From Halorhabdus tiamatea SARL4B (GTDB lineage: Archaea; Halobacteriota; Halobacteria; Halobacteriales; Haloarculaceae), in the NCBI RefSeq assembly GCF_000470655.1, contig NC_021913.1, positions 248,001-312,000 on the forward strand: DNA of 64,000 nucleotides, in the 5' to 3' direction. The position numbers and the translations under genes are program-made. Under the pieces are notes generated by a model. That model made no database searches, was not told the origin of the DNA, and worked only from the letters and a program-made list of their open reading frames with translations. Shown in pieces: positions 2,123 through 17,058 of this stretch; the stretch's first letter is position 1; the number at the start of each line of letters is the position of its first letter.

Positions 2123-2238
2123 GAGAGTCTACTTTGATGTGAAGTAACATAATCTTAGGGTGGATTATTCCGCAGACTCAAGGATATTTGAATCATCTAC
2201 CACTTTGGTATCGTTGAGAGCTTCTGAGGTTGGCTGCC

Positions 2239-2892
2239 TCAGACCGCATCGGGAGAAACGATATTGAGCCGATGGCTGGGAGTGTAGTGGAGTTCGATCG
2301 CGTCATTGATATCCGATTCATTGTTTATCATGTCCTCATAGTCAAGAGTAACAACTGTATCGCCATTTTCGTCGTCACACCAAGCTGCGCCTTGAGCCAA
2401 AACTAAGCTATCTGGATAGTTGTTAATTCGGGAGTCGATTTCATCCACTAAATCCGATTTGTGATTACCATTGTAAACTATGATCTCCCCATCCACCGTC
2501 CGCTTCCTTGATTGCACTGACCGAATGAATTTACGAAGCTCGTAGAACTTATCCTCGTCATCAATTGAGGCAAATTCCATCTGTAAGTCTCGAAGGTGCT
2601 CTCGGTCGTTCTCGGTGACTGATACAGATGGGTACCTATTTTCGAAGTCTAACACTTCGTAATTGAATACAGGATGTACCTCAGATCCGTTTTCTTGTTC
2701 CACAAATTTCCGAAGATCGATGTAGATCTGCCTTCGCGTAGAACATCGCGTATCTAACTCCTCTTTCACCGTTGTGGAAACGAACTTATCGTGAGCGCCT
2801 TCAATGATGGCGACGCTCCCGTCGTCCCCTTCAAGCCAGACTTGCACGTAGTTCAGTAGAACACTCGTGTCAAGAAATAACTTCGACGGCAT
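2239..2892 (-). CDS. PIN-domain ribonuclease-like protein embedded in the DISARM locus
   Basis: A 217-residue protein with the PIN acidic residues in canonical places: D8 in FLDTSVLLNY, E44/E45 in VKEELDT, D161 in PDSLVLAQGAAW and D184 in VTLDYEDM. PIN domains are metal-dependent nucleases, usually RNases and often toxins of VapBC-type systems. This one is longer than a simple VapC (about 130 aa); an inserted charged segment spans residues 60-155. It starts 5 bp after the stop of the 333-residue gene upstream, so the two are almost certainly co-transcribed and may form a toxin-antitoxin-like or effector-sensor pair. Placement between drmE and drmA is not part of the standard class 2 DISARM order that I know. 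Activity is inferred from the acidic residues only. Confidence 0.75.
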   Translation of the reverse strand: MPSKLFLDTSVLLNYVQVWLEGDDGSVAIIEGAHDKFVSTTVKEELDTRCSTRRQIYIDLRKFVEQENGSEVHPVFNYEVLDFENRYPSVSVTENDREHLRDLQMEFASIDDEDKFYELRKFIRSVQSRKRTVDGEIIVYNGNHKSDLVDEIDSRINNYPDSLVLAQGAAWCDDENGDTVVTLDYEDMINNESDINDAIELHYTPSHRLNIVSPDAV

Positions 2893-2897
2893 TTGAG

Positions 2898-3899
2898 CTA
2901 TCGTGAATTGATTTCGTCGTAGGTGTCCGCCAGCTCATTAACGGAGTCCTTGAGAGGCGAGTCAGAAGTATCTGGGTAGTAGTCACCAGGTCCTGGGACA
3001 AGGCCAGCATCAGCGCACAATTCCTTCAAGTTACGTAGGAACTCGTCGTAGTTCTGATCAAGGAACTGTAACTCGTCGCTTGCGCCTTGACGGATCTCGT
3101 TCTTATCTATTCCGTGTGGAGTTTCGCGTGAGATGGTCTCTGCGACGTATTTCCACGCGTAGTCGTGGTAGAAGTTGCTCAATTCACGGATAACCGTTCG
3201 CGGATCACCGTTCAATTCATTTTGGTCACTCCGGGCCAGTTTCATGTAGACATCTTCAACGAGGTCGGTGTATGCGATGAAAGGCTCAGCAACCTCGTCA
3301 AAAATAGGCTGCTTCAACAACTCACCGTGAAGGTCGCTAATAATACGGCCCAACTCCCGACAGTAGTCTTCATCGACAAAAACCACGTTAAGGCTGTCTT
3401 CATCGTCCCACAGGAAGCGCTGAAATTCGACGTTGTGAAGGTATAGCTGTTTGAAACGTGGGGGGGCATTTTCTTCGTAGAAATCATGAAGGAAATCGTG
3501 TAGGTTTGCCTCGAGGATCTCCTCTAGGCCCTCAAACTCCCCCACCTCGACATCTAAGTAAAACTCCTCGTAGTGTTTTGGTGAGGGGTAAGTGTCGGTA
3601 ACGCCAGGCCTCACGCTGGGGGTAAACGGGTGGGGGACTTCATCCAGAGCTGTAGGTTGTACACCCTCGGTTGACGGAACGCTGTTGCCCAAGTCAGGCC
3701 CGTATGTGTGCCAACTATACTGCACAGGGATACCGGACCAATCGACCCCGAGGAAAATCGTCTTGTGGAGTTTGATTTCCCCGTGGGTTGCTTGCTTGAA
3801 CGGCTTCGAATCGATACCTAACTCGGACAATGCGCCCTCCAAGCCGTGGATGAGGTCATCCACGAGTTGCTTTTCTTCCGCGCGAGAGATGTCGTCCAT
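2898..3899 (-). CDS. Unknown protein with YGP motif, partner of the PIN gene
   Basis: A 333-residue acidic protein. Near the N-terminus (residues 42-71) it reads KLHKTIFLGVDW...YSWHTYGPDLG. This resembles the 'LxKLxY ... YGP' signature of Panacea/DUF4065-like antitoxin domains and related winged-helix sensors, though at about residue 66 it is only a weak match. The rest is helical and charged with no motif that I recognise. It is followed after 5 bp by the PIN gene. It has its own upstream region of 188 bp with two copies of a 9-bp palindromic site, as expected for an autoregulated antitoxin-like gene. An antitoxin, sensor or scaffold role is an inference; no function is established from sequence. 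Confidence 0.55.
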   Translation of the reverse strand: MDDISRAEEKQLVDDLIHGLEGALSELGIDSKPFKQATHGEIKLHKTIFLGVDWSGIPVQYSWHTYGPDLGNSVPSTEGVQPTALDEVPHPFTPSVRPGVTDTYPSPKHYEEFYLDVEVGEFEGLEEILEANLHDFLHDFYEENAPPRFKQLYLHNVEFQRFLWDDEDSLNVVFVDEDYCRELGRIISDLHGELLKQPIFDEVAEPFIAYTDLVEDVYMKLARSDQNELNGDPRTVIRELSNFYHDYAWKYVAETISRETPHGIDKNEIRQGASDELQFLDQNYDEFLRNLKELCADAGLVPGPGDYYPDTSDSPLKDSVNELADTYDEINSR

Positions 3900-3919
3900 A
3901 GTTTGTACCCCAATTTATG

Positions 3920-3958
3920 CGCTGAGCGATTCGTCCGTGAGAGACGTTTCGCTGAGCG
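3920..3958. promoter_or_regulatory. Paired palindromic operator-like sites
   Basis: CGCTGAGCG occurs at 3920-3928 and again at 3950-3958. Each copy is itself a palindrome (CGCT-G-AGCG) and the copies are exactly 30 bp apart, close to three helical turns. They lie 21-59 bp upstream of the ATG at 3899 and overlap an AT-rich TATA-like stretch (CATAAATT read on the minus strand) just before the gene. The layout fits cooperative binding by a dimeric repressor controlling the YGP/PIN gene pair. Confidence 0.5.
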
Positions 3959-4087
3959 GCCAAATACCTTGGGTGTAAACTTGAGCGGCCAGTGTTATAG
4001 TATCTATGGACTCCCTTCGCGCTATTACATGCGGAGATATGCAGAAAAAGGAAGCCTCATCAACTGCTGAGGGCGTCGGCAAAGCCG

Positions 4088-6574
4088 CTACCCTAAATCG
4101 ACGGATTCGATCCTCTTTAATCGATGGGGGGCCACCTGATCCTCGTGTACATCAACCACTGTGTGGGGTTCGACGATACGCTGTCCTTCCTCGTCAATTA
4201 CGTCGAAGTCAGCCAGACGGATGTCCCAGTCCTCCGAGAGAACGACCTGCTCAGGATCGTCGCCAGCCATGACCCGGTAAGCCTGCTTCCGCAGTTCTCT
4301 CAGTAGCTTCATGTACGTCGTCTTTATTTCCTGAGTTGCTTCCCAGATCTTCTCAGAGTTCTCCTTCACGACGGTCAGGTCGTAGGCTTCAGCGATCGTG
4401 GGCAGATCATCATACGTTCTGGGGTAGTCGATTTCGAGGTTGTACCACCGGCGGAACGTGTCGTCCCCGTGGTCGGCTCCAGCCTCTCTCATCCGCTCTT
4501 TGAACTCGCCGAAGTCGTCTCCAGTCTCGTCGAGCGCCTGCTCGAGCCGAATCTTCCAGCGTTCCGCTCGCATGATGGCCTTGTCATCGCCCCGTCGCTT
4601 GATCAGGTCGTATAGCTGTTGACGGAGCTGTTCCGTCTGACGAACGTGGACGATGGTGTCTCCAGGTTGAACCTTACTGGCGTACTTCGACACCGTTCCC
4701 CCACGATCGCCGTCGACGACGTGTACCCTAGATCCGCGCTTGATGGGCATCGATCTCCCGTCGTCGAACACGAGGCGAAGACACTTCACCGACCCAGACT
4801 GGCCGTCACCACTTTCAGATCCACTGCTGGAAGGTACGGACGGATCGCTGGAAGTGTCGAGTGAATCTATGATCTCGTCGACAGACATTGGCTCATGCTC
4901 TTCGACTACATCGTAACCTTCAGCGATAGAGCTCTCCCACTCTGAGGTGTCTTCGCCTTCCGACCGTCCCTTGGGCATAGGCACATTCACCGAGACGCCG
5001 TCAACGACGGGGGCGTCCCACTCCTCGTCCTTATTTGCCGTCTCAGCTGCCTTTCGGTATAATTCTCGGTCAGTTACGTCGCGAAGCGTGTCGTCGAGGT
5101 GGTCGTACTGGTAGCGGAGGAGTGGAAGCTGATGTTCGTAGGCGAGTACAGTTACCTCTGGTGCGTGATTTGTTCGAAGAATCCACCGATCACGCCATGC
5201 TGGCGGCCCCACGAGTATAACGCGGTCTGCCGGAGGTGCGGTCGGCAGTGCTCCCGTCGAAATGACTCCTAGTTCCTCTCCTAAAGCGTCGTACAGGGGA
5301 CCTCCACGTGCTTCGAGATCTAGTTCAACTGCCGAGCGGTCACCGTCGCTGGGAACCACGACTAACAAGCTCTCGTCGGCGTCGAGTGCCCCGTGCAACA
5401 ATCGGTAGAGGTGACCGCGCTTGGTCTCTGAGAGTTCGTAGTCCTCCCACTCGTCATGAACGTCCTCCAACGATCTGACTGCGTCGCCGTACACACCGTG
5501 AGCTGGTCCTCCTGCGTCGTCGTCCCGGATGTTCTCGTAGTTATGACCGAGTCGATCGAGCCACCCCGAAGGTGCGATCGTCTCCCACTGGTTCCCCAAT
5601 GCTCTGTCGGCGTTACCCATCGAAGCAACGACGTTGGAGATGACGTTCAACGCCATTTTCAGGTCGTTAATTCCGTCGTCGAGGACATCGCTCTGGAGAT
5701 CGTCGTTAACGTCACTGAGCTCTTCAATTGAGGACCACACGTCGGCTAAGTCGTCCGCGACCTCGCCCTCTTCGACGACGTGAACCTCTCGACTAACACC
5801 GTCGACGTGATTCTGTAGCTGTCGCGTTACGCGCGTCTGTCGATCCACCTCAGGGACGGTCTTTACTCCGCCATCTACAGCCGTCGGTTCGTCGACGACA
5901 GCGTCTAATAGCGCTGGAGGCCACGCCCACCCTGATGCGTCTTCAGATACGTGACCGAAGGTTGGACCGAGAGGATCGTGGAGGCAGTAGATCACGGAAG
6001 GGATGTCGTTCTCGTCAAGCCACTGTTGAAACCGGTCCCATCGATTTGGACGGTATGTGACGGTTTCGTCGTAAATGACGCAGCCGATCTCGGACGCTAC
6101 GTTCTCGTCGGGAAGGTGAGTCAGGTGCTTGGAGAAGAGGGCTCTTGGAGGACGTCCTTCGTCACCGCGGGAGGTCGTTTTCTGATTGACCTCGCCATTC
6201 GGTTTGATGGTAGCGAGCGGAAACCGCTCTTTGCTCCAAGGTCGTCGATGACCAGGGCGGAGTTCTTTGTAGCGCTCACGAACGTGCGCGTCCCTCGAGA
6301 ATACGAGAACGCGCTTCCGGTCCGTGTCTGTGCTCATGAGTTTGAACAGCGCGCTTAACGTGAGTATCTCTAAGTATTCGTGTCGGAGTGTAGGAGACAA
6401 TAACCACACGCCGCTCTCACGCTCGATTGCCCCCTTGAGCAACGTATCGTGGACATCTAGAGTTTCAGGCCAGTGTACTCGAGTATCCCTCAGCCGAGGG
6501 TTTTCCGGTAGCCTGGGCTTATTGGAGATGTCGTTGCTTTCACACAGCGCGTCGATGAGCGGACCGGCTGGCAC
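4088..6574 (-). CDS. drmE: DrmE-like protein of class 2 DISARM
   Basis: An 828-residue protein starting with GTG at 6574. The N-terminal part contains a helicase/NTPase-like segment (VLVFSRDAHVRERYKEL). The middle has a second alpha/beta segment (VILVGPPAWRDRWILRT, TVLAYEHQLPLLRYQYDHL). A Ser/Gly/Asp-rich linker precedes a C-terminal domain with a small beta segment (RVHVVDGDRGGTVSKY, KVQPGDTIVHVR) and helices. I see no canonical Walker A. Size and layout match DrmE, the class 2-specific DISARM protein of unknown biochemical role, and the gene lies upstream of drmA on the same strand as expected. The stop is followed by a T-rich stretch on the coding strand (about 4045-4060), so a terminator may separate it from the YGP/PIN pair. 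The call depends on context and general similarity, without a domain search. Confidence 0.6.
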   Translation of the reverse strand: MPAGPLIDALCESNDISNKPRLPENPRLRDTRVHWPETLDVHDTLLKGAIERESGVWLLSPTLRHEYLEILTLSALFKLMSTDTDRKRVLVFSRDAHVRERYKELRPGHRRPWSKERFPLATIKPNGEVNQKTTSRGDEGRPPRALFSKHLTHLPDENVASEIGCVIYDETVTYRPNRWDRFQQWLDENDIPSVIYCLHDPLGPTFGHVSEDASGWAWPPALLDAVVDEPTAVDGGVKTVPEVDRQTRVTRQLQNHVDGVSREVHVVEEGEVADDLADVWSSIEELSDVNDDLQSDVLDDGINDLKMALNVISNVVASMGNADRALGNQWETIAPSGWLDRLGHNYENIRDDDAGGPAHGVYGDAVRSLEDVHDEWEDYELSETKRGHLYRLLHGALDADESLLVVVPSDGDRSAVELDLEARGGPLYDALGEELGVISTGALPTAPPADRVILVGPPAWRDRWILRTNHAPEVTVLAYEHQLPLLRYQYDHLDDTLRDVTDRELYRKAAETANKDEEWDAPVVDGVSVNVPMPKGRSEGEDTSEWESSIAEGYDVVEEHEPMSVDEIIDSLDTSSDPSVPSSSGSESGDGQSGSVKCLRLVFDDGRSMPIKRGSRVHVVDGDRGGTVSKYASKVQPGDTIVHVRQTEQLRQQLYDLIKRRGDDKAIMRAERWKIRLEQALDETGDDFGEFKERMREAGADHGDDTFRRWYNLEIDYPRTYDDLPTIAEAYDLTVVKENSEKIWEATQEIKTTYMKLLRELRKQAYRVMAGDDPEQVVLSEDWDIRLADFDVIDEEGQRIVEPHTVVDVHEDQVAPHRLKRIESVDLG

Positions 6575-7146: not shown

Positions 7147-7776
7147 CTATTCGGGAGTGTGTTCCATTCCCCAGAGATCCTCGAAGTACTCGAGTGTGTA
7201 TTTCCCTCGACTGCCGCCCTTATACGAGTTGAACCGATCGACGTAGTACATCACCTCAAGAAAGCCTTCTTTCTCGTGATGGACGCCCTGGTCCATCCGG
7301 GGCAGAATCTCGTCAAGGAGGAGATCGACCTGCTCGCGCTTGACGATGAACTGATCGCGGAGCGGGGTCAGGAGCGTCCGCGTATTGCTGATACCCTGCA
7401 CGCCCCAAATGTACTGATCGCTACGGTTCTCATTGGACTCGAGACTCGACACATGGCAGTTCACGCCGTGGGCATCACAGTACGCACAAAGCGCCTCCAT
7501 CAGGTGGTCACGATACGTTTCGGTGACCTCGATCTGCGGCTGAAGTCGATGATCGACTCGATACTCACTGTTCTGGTCTACTTTTACGCCAATCCAGCCT
7601 TCTGCGTCGAGAGTTCCAGTCAGCTGTTCGTGGGTGATTCGGAGCATTGGTGCAAGTTCAAAGCCGGTGCTGTACCGCTCTCGCTCGGCAATTGAGATAC
7701 GGATACAGCCCTCGCCGTCGAAGAAGCCAGTGAACCACGCATCGAAATCGTGGGTCTCGGGTGAACTATTTGACAT
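7147..7776 (-). CDS. Free-standing LAGLIDADG homing endonuclease
   Basis: A 209-residue protein whose residues 12-25 read AWFTGFFDGEGCIRI, the LAGLIDADG dimerisation/catalytic helix with its conserved acidic residue. The following IRISIAERERY...MLRITHE matches the family's saddle strands. A single clear motif suggests a homodimer cutting a palindromic DNA site. It is not inside an intron or intein that I can see, so it is free-standing. It has its own terminator-like repeat downstream and sits in plasmid accessory DNA, which fits a selfish or plasmid-competition role. Some haloarchaeal members may instead be WhiA-like regulators lacking cleavage. Confidence 0.7.
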   Translation of the reverse strand: MSNSSPETHDFDAWFTGFFDGEGCIRISIAERERYSTGFELAPMLRITHEQLTGTLDAEGWIGVKVDQNSEYRVDHRLQPQIEVTETYRDHLMEALCAYCDAHGVNCHVSSLESNENRSDQYIWGVQGISNTRTLLTPLRDQFIVKREQVDLLLDEILPRMDQGVHHEKEGFLEVMYYVDRFNSYKGGSRGKYTLEYFEDLWGMEHTPE

Positions 7777-10071: not shown

Positions 10072-10581
10072 TCAGCTGTCGCCGGCGACCAGGTCCTCGA
10101 TGAACCGGAAGCCGTTCACGAACGTCACCGAGTCACCGTCCCCCTCGCTCGCGAGCACGGTTTCGGCTCCCTCGCCGGCCGCGATATCGGTCGTGTAAAT
10201 GTACACCTCGGCCGCCGACCCCGCACTGAGATGCTGGGCAGCGAGGGCGGCGAGGGCGGCGTCGGCACGTTCGACCTCGTCGGCAGGGCGGTCGTCGGCG
10301 TTCGCGATGTACCGCTGGACCCCGTCCATCACCCGCGAGACGACCGGTTCGGAGAACTCGAGCGGCGCCGCAACCGTCGCCCAGCCCTCGTCGATCGCGG
10401 CGTCGATAGGTGGCGCCTCCACGTCGGGATCGTCGACGGTTAGCTCCTCGTACACCCGTTCGGGCAGAACGAAGGTGACGTCGTTCCGGCGAGCGAACCG
10501 CCGAACAGCCTTGTACCGGCTGTTCGAGGGCTGTCCCATCGCGACGAACAGGCCGGTGTCAGCGATGTGGAGCCGGCTCAC
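10072..10581 (-). CDS. PIN-domain toxin-like nuclease
   Basis: A 169-residue protein with PIN acidic positions D8 (IADTGLFVAMG), E41/E45 (LPERVYEEL), D107 (ERADAALAALA) and D132 (TTDIAAGEGA). It overlaps the upstream HTH gene by 4 bp (ATGA type), a coupling typical of toxin-antitoxin operons. Predicted function: RNase toxin neutralised by the HTH partner. This is a recurrent haloarchaeal plasmid gene pair. Confidence 0.75.
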   Translation of the reverse strand: MSRLHIADTGLFVAMGQPSNSRYKAVRRFARRNDVTFVLPERVYEELTVDDPDVEAPPIDAAIDEGWATVAAPLEFSEPVVSRVMDGVQRYIANADDRPADEVERADAALAALAAQHLSAGSAAEVYIYTTDIAAGEGAETVLASEGDGDSVTFVNGFRFIEDLVAGDS

Positions 10582-11171
10582 GCGTCGCTAGTGCCGTCGC
10601 CGACGTCCAATTCGTCGAGACCAGATCCAGCTTCCTCGATGTCGTAGTGCTCGAGGACGACGGGCCGGAGTGCCTGCAGAATGATCTCGGCGGCGAGCGA
10701 CGAGATATCGAGATCCTGGGCCATCAGGCGGTGGGTGATCTCGCCCCGTTCGCGGTCGACAGCATAGGTGAGCGCCGTCGCCAACCCGGAGATTCCATGC
10801 CGGTCGATGTACGTATCGATGTCGTCGTCGGTTGCTCGTCGGCCAACGGCATCGATGAGCGCCGGCGTGATCGTGTACTCACGGTCGCTAGCGGCCGTTG
10901 TCACGGTTAAGTCGATCTCCCGCGCAACGTACCGCCGGGGCTGTTCCTCGCTGATTGCCTCGATGACGCCGGCGTCGACGAGCCGGTTGACGTAGCTGTA
11001 GGCTGTGCCCTGCGCGAGGTCGAGGGCGTCCATCAGTTCCTGGACGGTCGCCTCGCCCTCACGAGCGAGATACGCATACAGCTGGGCGAGGGCTGGTTCT
11101 TCGAGGAGGGCCGCGACCGAGAGGAAGTCGCGGATGACGTCGCCGTCGGCCCGGTTCGAGGTGCGTGACAT
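10578..11171 (-). CDS. Winged-helix HTH protein, likely antitoxin of the PIN gene
   Basis: A 197-residue protein with a clear N-terminal winged helix: LAQLYAYLAREGEATVQELMDALDLAQGTAYSYVNRLVDAGVIEAI. The C-terminal half is helical and acidic, without a recognised fold. It precedes the PIN gene with a 4-bp overlap, so it is likely both the autorepressor and the antitoxin. Such HTH proteins (DUF7437-type in my recollection) pair with PIN proteins on many haloarchaeal replicons. Confidence 0.7.
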   Translation of the reverse strand: MSRTSNRADGDVIRDFLSVAALLEEPALAQLYAYLAREGEATVQELMDALDLAQGTAYSYVNRLVDAGVIEAISEEQPRRYVAREIDLTVTTAASDREYTITPALIDAVGRRATDDDIDTYIDRHGISGLATALTYAVDRERGEITHRLMAQDLDISSLAAEIILQALRPVVLEHYDIEEAGSGLDELDVGDGTSDA

Positions 11172-15677: not shown

Positions 15678-17058
15678 CTCAGTCGATCACATCGGCGGCC
15701 GCGTAATCTTGTCTGATGGCGGTGAATCAGATCGAACTGGTCGTGAAGCGTCTTCGAAGCGCGCTCGTGAGCGTAATCTTCGGGATGAACCGTCGCTGTC
15801 GGCGGCGGACTGCCGCCGACGCGACAGTGTCGCCACTCACGACCGCTCTCCGGACCGGTGGACAGCTACCGGAAGAACCGGTCGTCGAGTGACTGGTTCG
15901 CTGGAACAGCCCTGCGCACACCGAGCGCTGTCCAGGCGGCCCGCAGCACCATCTCACAGAACTCTGTGAACGACCAGTTCCAGAGGCGGCGCCCCCCGCG
16001 GCGGGGCGCCGCCACGTACTTCCAGTGGAGATACCGCCAGCTGTTCTGGAGCAGCAGGCTTACGACAAACATCACCAGCCGTAGACCAGCGTCCTGAGAG
16101 CTGGTGAATGCGAGGCTCTGCTTGGCTAAGCGGTAACTCGACTCGATGCCGAAGCGCTTGCTGTAATGCTCTCGGGCATCCCGCGGCGTGTCGATAAACG
16201 GCGCGTCAGCGGCGTAGCCGTGACGCGCCACCCCGTGTTCGTCGTATCGTCCCTGCTGGTAGACGCAGTCGATGAACACGGGAAAGGTCACCTCGCCAGC
16301 GAGATCGTGTTCGATCTCGCGGCTCCAGCCCCTGCTGAGTTCGTTTTGAATCGTCTCACCCCATTTGACAATCGGCATGACGTAGGCGTAGTTGTGCGCG
16401 TACAGCAGTCCGAGGCAGGTACTGTTGTAGAATCCGCGATCGAGGTAGACGGCCTTGACACCGAGGTCAAGGCCGTCGAGGAGTTCGAGAAACTCAGCGA
16501 GGACATCGCTGGTGGTTTCGCCAGCGACGAGCTGGCGAACCGCTAGTGTGTACCGCTTGTTACGTACCCGCGCGTAGAGCGTCGCATACGCGTGAAACGT
16601 CGTTGTTCCGCGTTTGGCCTGCGACGAGTACAGAGCCTCGGTTTCGTCCTCATCACCGTAGTAGGGATCGAGGTGGAGGTCTGCGCAGACCTCCACCGGT
16701 CGATCTGGGAGTGTCTCAAGTGCATCTCGCTGCAAGAGCGCGTCTCCAACTACCTCAACAGTGTCAAGGTCGAACTGATCGGTGAGATGTCCCCGGACAG
16801 TGTTGGCGTGCGGTGAGTCGTCTGTCGTTTCGCAGACGTGGTTGATCGAGGTCCCGCCGGCGCTGGCGCCGGCGAGGACCTCATACAGCTTCTCCGTGGT
16901 GACTTCGACGTTTTCGCCGAGATCTATCGCAAGCTCCTCGTCAAGGCTGTTGACGACAAAATTAAGCAGGTGCTCTTCCTCTATCTCGTTGTCTGCTTCG
17001 GGTTCTTGCACATCCTCCCAAAGCAGACACTTCCTCTAACCCGATGTGATCGACTGAG
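15678..17058 (-). mobile_element. ISH3-type insertion sequence
   Basis: A 1,381-bp element bounded by an 18-bp perfect inverted repeat, CTCAGTCGATCACATCGG, at 15678-15695 and its complement at 17041-17058. It contains one intact transposase. The bases next to the ends (CTATA on the left, AATCG on the right) do not form a target duplication. This suggests rearrangement through this copy rather than simple insertion. Confidence 0.85.
15866..17011 (-). CDS. ISH3-family transposase
   Basis: A 381-residue DDE transposase with the ISH3 N-terminus (LLNFVVNSLDEELAIDLGENVEVTTEKLYEVLAGASAGGTS) and core pieces VCADLHLDPYYGD (first Asp), VYLDRGFYN (second Asp) and KRFGIESSYRLAKQSL (Glu). It appears complete. 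It faces away from the deoxyhypusine synthase gene, whose ATG is 53 bp beyond the right IS end. Confidence 0.85.
   Translation of the reverse strand: MQEPEADNEIEEEHLLNFVVNSLDEELAIDLGENVEVTTEKLYEVLAGASAGGTSINHVCETTDDSPHANTVRGHLTDQFDLDTVEVVGDALLQRDALETLPDRPVEVCADLHLDPYYGDEDETEALYSSQAKRGTTTFHAYATLYARVRNKRYTLAVRQLVAGETTSDVLAEFLELLDGLDLGVKAVYLDRGFYNSTCLGLLYAHNYAYVMPIVKWGETIQNELSRGWSREIEHDLAGEVTFPVFIDCVYQQGRYDEHGVARHGYAADAPFIDTPRDAREHYSKRFGIESSYRLAKQSLAFTSSQDAGLRLVMFVVSLLLQNSWRYLHWKYVAAPRRGGRRLWNWSFTEFCEMVLRAAWTALGVRRAVPANQSLDDRFFR

Follow-up and report, generated by a model that had tools for sequence, protein, structure and literature searches.

The analysed window, a stretch of 64,000 nucleotides from Halorhabdus tiamatea SARL4B, begins within a DISARM locus that lies on a 330-kb contig (minus strand) and extends past the window start. 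On this strand, the gene order is drmE-X-PIN-drmA-drmB-drmC-methylase, with X and PIN designating two genes that public records label 'hypothetical protein'. Using PADLOC, we identified the class 2 gene drmE at 4088-6574 (E = 6e-142; Pfam DrmE_C, 8e-18), the 5' part of the helicase gene drmA at 2-2122 (E = 5e-157; the full gene, L002:10217-14122, encodes 1301 aa), and, beyond the window, drmB (E = 3.5e-147), drmC (E = 3e-55), and a gene for a 5-cytosine methylase, which scored better as a general type II methylase (1e-79) than as DrmMII (4.5e-45). With all five components present, the system represents a complete class 2 DISARM. The methylase gene follows drmC, so that the class 2 order assumed in the first-pass annotation, with the methylase between drmB and drmC, does not apply here. 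The same annotation had described two genes between drmE and drmA, 5 bp apart and on the same strand, and this holds: X (2898-3899, minus strand) and PIN (2239-2892, minus strand) are intact open reading frames separated by 5 bp; X lies 188 bp from drmE, and PIN lies 116 bp from drmA.

The second gene of this cassette, PIN, encodes a putative ribonuclease toxin of 217 aa. The Pfam PIN match of the window protein is sub-threshold (E = 0.029), and PF01850 was matched by 10 of 34 relatives, with a best E-value of 1.4e-5; in a protein search, relatives were detectable in 34 of 391 haloarchaeal genomes. For the AlphaFold2 model (mean pLDDT 87), the top Foldseek matches were solved VapC/FitB toxins with probabilities of 0.99–1.00, at E-values of just 0.007–0.05. 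Residues D8, E45, D161, and D184 occupy the four acidic positions expected of a PIN nuclease and are at least 90% conserved among the 34 relatives, which also applies to D96, located in an insert. The proposal of a PIN nuclease with all four acidic positions is thus borne out, the fold being confirmed by the predicted structure.

The first gene, X, encodes a putative antitoxin of 333 aa. No significant family match was obtained for it in Pfam, NCBIfam, PADLOC, or PHROGs, and neither profile nor fold searches of the PDB returned anything meaningful. Its AlphaFold2 model (pLDDT 89.6) is mostly helical, comprising a short hairpin that bears W63 and G67 and an all-helical C-terminal region of more than 200 residues. 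K46, W63, and G67 are invariant among 41 relatives of X. The YGP signature emphasized in the first-pass annotation is present in the window protein (residues 66–68), but of its three residues, G67 alone is kept throughout the family; AG, FG, or YG followed by another residue is found in most members. A protein search of whole genomes (E ≤ 0.01) identified relatives of X in 68 of the 391 haloarchaeal genomes sampled, and a profile search extended the range of X to six genomes from the same phylum that do not belong to the order. Scanning viral and genome collections for peptide patterns of X or PIN gave zero relatives, and no viral or phage relative was found.

A comparison of X with Panacea/DUF4065 profiles, suggested at the outset as a check, had a mixed outcome. 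The cut-off of the Pfam model SocA_Panacea (PF13274) was not reached: the window protein had no match, and the family was absent from the 25 families listed for 41 relatives of X. The link is provided by altA, a 311-aa protein encoded at the corresponding position of another haloarchaeal genome (G334, described below), whose sole Pfam match is SocA_Panacea at a sub-threshold E-value of 0.11. In local-mode profile comparisons, the X family matched the altA family at 96.7% (E = 5e-10), and altA matched haloarchaeal SocA_Panacea proteins at 93.9% (E = 1.5e-7) over 108 columns. Compared directly, X and Panacea reached 37–60% (E = 9e-5 to 3.5e-4), and this only in the K..K...(W/F).YGP stretch, corresponding to X residues 38–79. 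None of 23 unrelated neighbour families used as controls exceeded 0.8% against X, while one small control family matched the Panacea set at 69%, possibly owing to a winged-helix-like portion of the latter. Global mode yielded only 2.3% for X against a smaller Panacea set, and local mode was adopted. Nor did a sequence search with Panacea recover any homologue of solved structure. Judged from these profiles, X probably represents an antitoxin of the Panacea type that has diverged far, through transitivity rather than direct proof; the Panacea domain itself has been reported from archaea (PMC8832971).

Among 51 distinct X genes with readable flanks, 41 are followed directly on the 3' side by a PIN gene on the same strand, with spacings of −125 to +13 bp, the larger overlaps (toward −125 bp) hinging on the start codon chosen; a PIN gene is absent from the other 10 loci. 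Three of these X genes (L071, L119, and L120) are followed by a PemK/MazF toxin gene (Pfam E = 3e-16, 1e-13, and 6e-12), and the same pairing occurs on a Haladaptatus plasmid, where the record reads 'type II toxin-antitoxin system PemK/MazF family toxin'. Four more precede genes for a small family of 149–152 aa, which had no family match in Pfam, toxin families included. By eye, these proteins and a 143-aa partner had appeared RelE-like, an identity that we dropped as it was supported neither by Pfam (both) nor by a PDB sequence search (143-aa protein). In a phylogenetic tree, the window X groups with L062, paired with PIN, and L063, paired with another small protein, within a larger group that holds the PemK pairs. 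The neighbours of X therefore vary in the manner of Panacea systems, for which partner exchange of toxins has been described (PMC8832971, PMC10440598). These pairings, together with the PIN fold and the profile chain to Panacea, lend good support to the initial toxin–antitoxin-like reading, and the idea that the pair might be found only here can be set aside. Going by gene pairing and sequence profiles, X and PIN very probably form a toxin–antitoxin pair with a long, diverged Panacea-like putative antitoxin.

The slot that the pair occupies comprises all DNA from the drmE stop codon to the drmA ATG (2123-4087, minus strand) and is exchangeable, as revealed by a blastn comparison with G334, a genome from another genus in another family of the order. 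DISARM DNA of the two genomes is 93.7% identical over drmE and 95.95% identical over drmA-drmB-drmC-methylase, but the alignment stops at about position 4092, just before the drmE stop codon, and resumes at 2122, the first base of drmA. In G334, the slot (L106:7471-9339) holds the gene for the Panacea-like altA (LPFYWYIHGPMSKAV) and that for a PIN-like protein of 231 aa (MDFWDTNIVLGY...), related by profile to the PIN family (97.7%); both proteins have relatives that co-occur in other genomes, too. The whole slot has thus been replaced in a near-identical DISARM by a sister-family cassette. Since drmE and drmA are only 62–89 bp apart in four cassette-free loci, the slot is a true insertion point. 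The GC content is 0.51 for X, 0.46 for PIN, and 0.47 and 0.46 for the G334 pair, compared to 0.53–0.57 for the DISARM genes, and a search for near-identical DNA on plasmids found none. The view that the pair was inserted into DISARM, as first proposed, is strongly supported by the different pair in the same slot and by six further loci with a pair at another slot. Within the slot, X is preceded by a 188-bp leader (3900-4087, minus strand) with operator-like repeats, namely CGCTGAGCG at 3920-3928 and 3950-3958, and TGAGCGGCCA at 3953-3962 and 3982-3991; a direct repeat as long as the latter (10 bp) occurred in 0 of 60 shuffles. The G334 leader contains an unrelated 23-bp direct repeat, longer than in any of 60 shuffles. 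Such repeats would fit, without proving, self-regulation of the cassette.

DrmE was found in 15 of the 391 genomes, with one contig being too short to judge. Of the 14 evaluable loci, eight contain a cassette, at two places and from two families. The window and G334 carry it between drmE and drmA (slot 1), whereas in six haloarchaea (G058, G264, G281, G008, G295, and G373), a distant X-PIN pair separates drmC from a DUF6339 gene (slot 2); the remaining six loci (G342, G357, G194, G096, G345, and G145) are cassette-free. Copies in named genomes agree with this, a cassette being present, for example, in Halorubrum aquaticum and HArc-gm2, and absent from Halorubrum coriense and Hrr. saccharovorum. 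All six X proteins from slot 2 fall into a single clade (100/100) apart from the window X, with both clades being well supported. The two placements therefore represent separate recruitments, and the six slot-2 loci, being closely related to one another, count as one event. Within the slot-2 clade, from which all selection values derive as the window pair has no close relative for such an estimate, dN/dS was 0.08–0.23 for X and 0.06–0.19 for PIN, compared to 0.03–0.07 for drmB. These X and PIN genes are thus constrained, yet evolve faster than the DISARM core, and since the X and PIN frames are also kept across many genomes, they are not due to chance. Conservation of the pair in haloarchaeal DISARM, another of the checks initially suggested, is therefore partial: the pair does not hold a fixed place in most loci, as a core component would, and as most X-PIN pairs lie outside DISARM and six of the 14 loci have no pair, it is neither specific to this system nor required by it.

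Beyond DISARM, about ten X-PIN pairs, forming one clade (100/99), adjoin a cluster encoding a DpdJ-like helicase, a PLD protein, an ATPase, and sometimes a DruE-like helicase, while other X-PIN pairs have mixed surroundings. The module is common in defence islands, yet not tied to DISARM. As toxin–antitoxin genes gather in defence islands in any case, the count of DISARM associations is not to be taken as a probability. The helicase cluster (L080, L082, L085-L088, L091, L094, and L098) comprises the DpdJ-like protein of ~1360 aa, the PLD protein of ~150 aa, a protein of ~240 aa, and the ATPase of ~960 aa, and in L080/L085 also the DruE-like helicase, which has an MZB domain. An earlier guess that this cluster (L080 and others) was BREX was dropped in view of these PADLOC and Pfam assignments; it looks like a defence system related to Dpd, Druantia, or DISARM. 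TFB-like genes lie within a few kb of most pairs of this clade (L082, L085-L088, L091, L092, L094, and L098), one of them being annotated as TFIIB family. In L079 and L081, X-PIN has a Cdc6 gene on one side and a type IIG restriction-modification enzyme on the other, beyond which a 749-aa protein with a Piwi domain (pAgo-like) is encoded. Regarding the surroundings of haloarchaeal DISARM, a three-gene block (DUF6339, ~345 aa, and ~632 aa) was present in L066, L075-L078, L083, L102, L123, L125, L130, and L131. Its 632-aa protein matches the PADLOC candidate PDC-M33A (E = 5e-22), and the stretch from drmC to this block is variable, containing X-PIN, GmrSD, HNH, or other genes. In L103 (G008), two drmE genes, split by a gene for an 810-aa protein, lie upstream of a single drmA.

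We read the pair as a mobile, autonomous type II-like toxin–antitoxin cassette in a swappable drmE-drmA slot, with X as Panacea-related antitoxin and PIN as RNase toxin, and assign this reading a probability of about 0.8. The slot swap in near-identical loci implies that the defence system has an exchangeable place for such pairs. X and PIN would be co-translated and held as an inert complex, with X presumably silencing PIN by direct binding. If X were lost, consumed, or inactivated, as might happen upon infection, under a viral inhibitor, or when the island is lost, the PIN RNase would be freed, cut RNA, and thereby stop growth; toxicity, neutralization, the RNA target, and any trigger are predicted on this basis. 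Located within DISARM, the pair could then add a second, growth-arresting layer or make the island costly to lose. Weighing against the cassette reading are the missing Panacea Pfam match of X, its direct profile match to Panacea of only 37–60%, which makes the link a transitive one, its unconserved YGP, the sub-threshold sequence evidence for the window PIN, the lack of a structure confirming a Panacea core in X, and the missing toxin-family match of the short proteins encoded in place of PIN at four loci.

What the cassette does for DISARM is a separate matter, on which a guarding role has precedents and the same data fit equally well a cassette that stabilizes an island or plasmid by addiction. 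In the guard or back-up role proposed in the first-pass annotation, X would sense DISARM failure, inhibition, or a viral anti-DISARM protein and release PIN to abort infection. This is favoured by the fact that DISARM acquired cassettes on at least three separate occasions (twice in slot 1, with X-PIN and with the sister pair, and once in slot 2, with X-PIN), by the position between core genes on the same strand, and by the occurrence of the pair in or beside other multi-gene defence clusters, i.e., the helicase-PLD-ATPase cluster and the two loci with type IIG and pAgo-like genes. Panacea has been put forward as a sensor (PMC10440598), CreTA, an RNA toxin–antitoxin, guards CRISPR-Cas in haloarchaea (PMC9458426), and PIN and other nucleases are embedded as back-ups among BREX core genes (PMC12839542). 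The cassette-free DrmE loci and the many X-PIN pairs outside DISARM speak against it, six of the eight cassette-bearing loci belong to one close lineage, and coupling to DISARM proteins is putative, so that we consider a guarding role tentative and on balance rather doubtful. We give close to even odds to a selfish, hitch-hiking cassette that would act through post-segregational killing to keep the island or the 330-kb replicon stable, and would have no functional link to DISARM. This is suggested by the majority of loci outside DISARM, the foreign base composition, the cassette's own leader with repeats, and the complete swap of the cassette next to an unchanged DISARM; moreover, the window contig is plasmid-sized and relatives are often found on plasmids. 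Such a cassette leaves to be explained why placement occurred repeatedly and exactly between DISARM core genes rather than elsewhere in the island, and why slot-2 pairs are kept under purifying selection across several families.

The position within the operon, and the fact that DISARM action has no firmly assigned nuclease (PMC9142583), would also suit integral subunits rather than a toxin–antitoxin pair, with X as specificity or adaptor factor and PIN as the nuclease of this variant. We regard this as quite improbable, because near-identical DISARM proteins in G334 live with a different pair, most X-PIN pairs have no DISARM nearby, and X pairs with PemK toxins elsewhere. Even less credible is a decayed or neutral, inactive insertion, given that both frames are intact, the acidic residues are retained, and relatives show the low dN/dS values mentioned above. 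Extending the cassette reading, haloarchaeal DISARM might possess effector slots dedicated to interchangeable Panacea-like/PIN cassettes, one between drmE and drmA and a second after drmC, with an antitoxin that senses DISARM failure or a viral inhibitor, and swaps might tune the back-up to local viruses; in this full form, we consider the model unlikely.

Toxin–antitoxin pairs, partner swapping by Panacea, and embedded back-up effectors are already known kinds; what is new, and most amenable to testing, is the exchange of cassettes in one slot of near-identical DISARM loci. A search of the open literature, with subscription papers and most preprints outside its scope, found no account of the X family or of toxin–antitoxin cassettes in DISARM. 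The module resembles PanAT (SocA/DUF4065, PF13274) in having X followed by exchangeable toxins (PIN, PemK/MazF) and in the X-altA-Panacea profile chain with its K..K..(W/Y)..G core in register, but differs in the size of X (~330 aa, with the long helical C-terminal region), which stays below Panacea Pfam detection and has mostly lost YGP, and in its location within DISARM. With VapBC and FitAB, it shares a PIN-fold toxin with four conserved acids and a two-gene operon; however, the toxin family described here has 217–270 aa and a helical insert, compared to ~130–140 aa for VapBC/FitAB toxins, and X was unrelated to VapB/FitA in every search made, with no DNA-binding domain identified. Like X-PIN, CreTA is a toxin–antitoxin unit associated with a haloarchaeal defence system and provides the model of guard action, but it is an RNA-based system under repression by the Cas effector itself (PMC9458426), whereas any such coupling of X-PIN to DISARM is hypothetical. 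The BREX back-ups likewise include PIN RNases among core defence genes; the BREX survey (PMC12839542) makes no mention of DISARM, and the cassettes described here add a Panacea-related partner and the same-slot swap.

Our data thus add an unnamed, widespread, probable toxin–antitoxin family of haloarchaea, linked to the Panacea domain through its putative antitoxin. Two ~95% identical DISARM loci that differ mainly in the slot cassette constitute a natural near-isogenic pair, with which the question of guard versus passenger becomes directly testable for toxin–antitoxin pairs inside defence operons. Repeated recruitment to DISARM and to large defence clusters would extend the layered immunity of CRISPR (CreTA) and BREX.

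Regarding the wider neighbourhood, the strand of drmE encodes, shortly upstream of this gene, a LAGLIDADG endonuclease-like protein (7147-7776, minus strand; PF00961, E = 7e-11), a homing endonuclease gene bordering the DISARM locus. At the other side, a TFB-like (TFIIB) gene (L002:4937-5914, minus strand) follows the DISARM methylase gene. By eye, a TnpB-like protein (L002:1742-3580, minus strand) near the far end of the locus and a transposase-like open reading frame (15866-17011, minus strand) appear as signs of a mobile neighbourhood. A further toxin–antitoxin-like pair, likewise recognized by eye, is located at 10072-11171 (minus strand), where a 197-aa helix-turn-helix-like protein is followed by a 169-aa PIN-like protein (MSRLHIADTGLFVAMG...).
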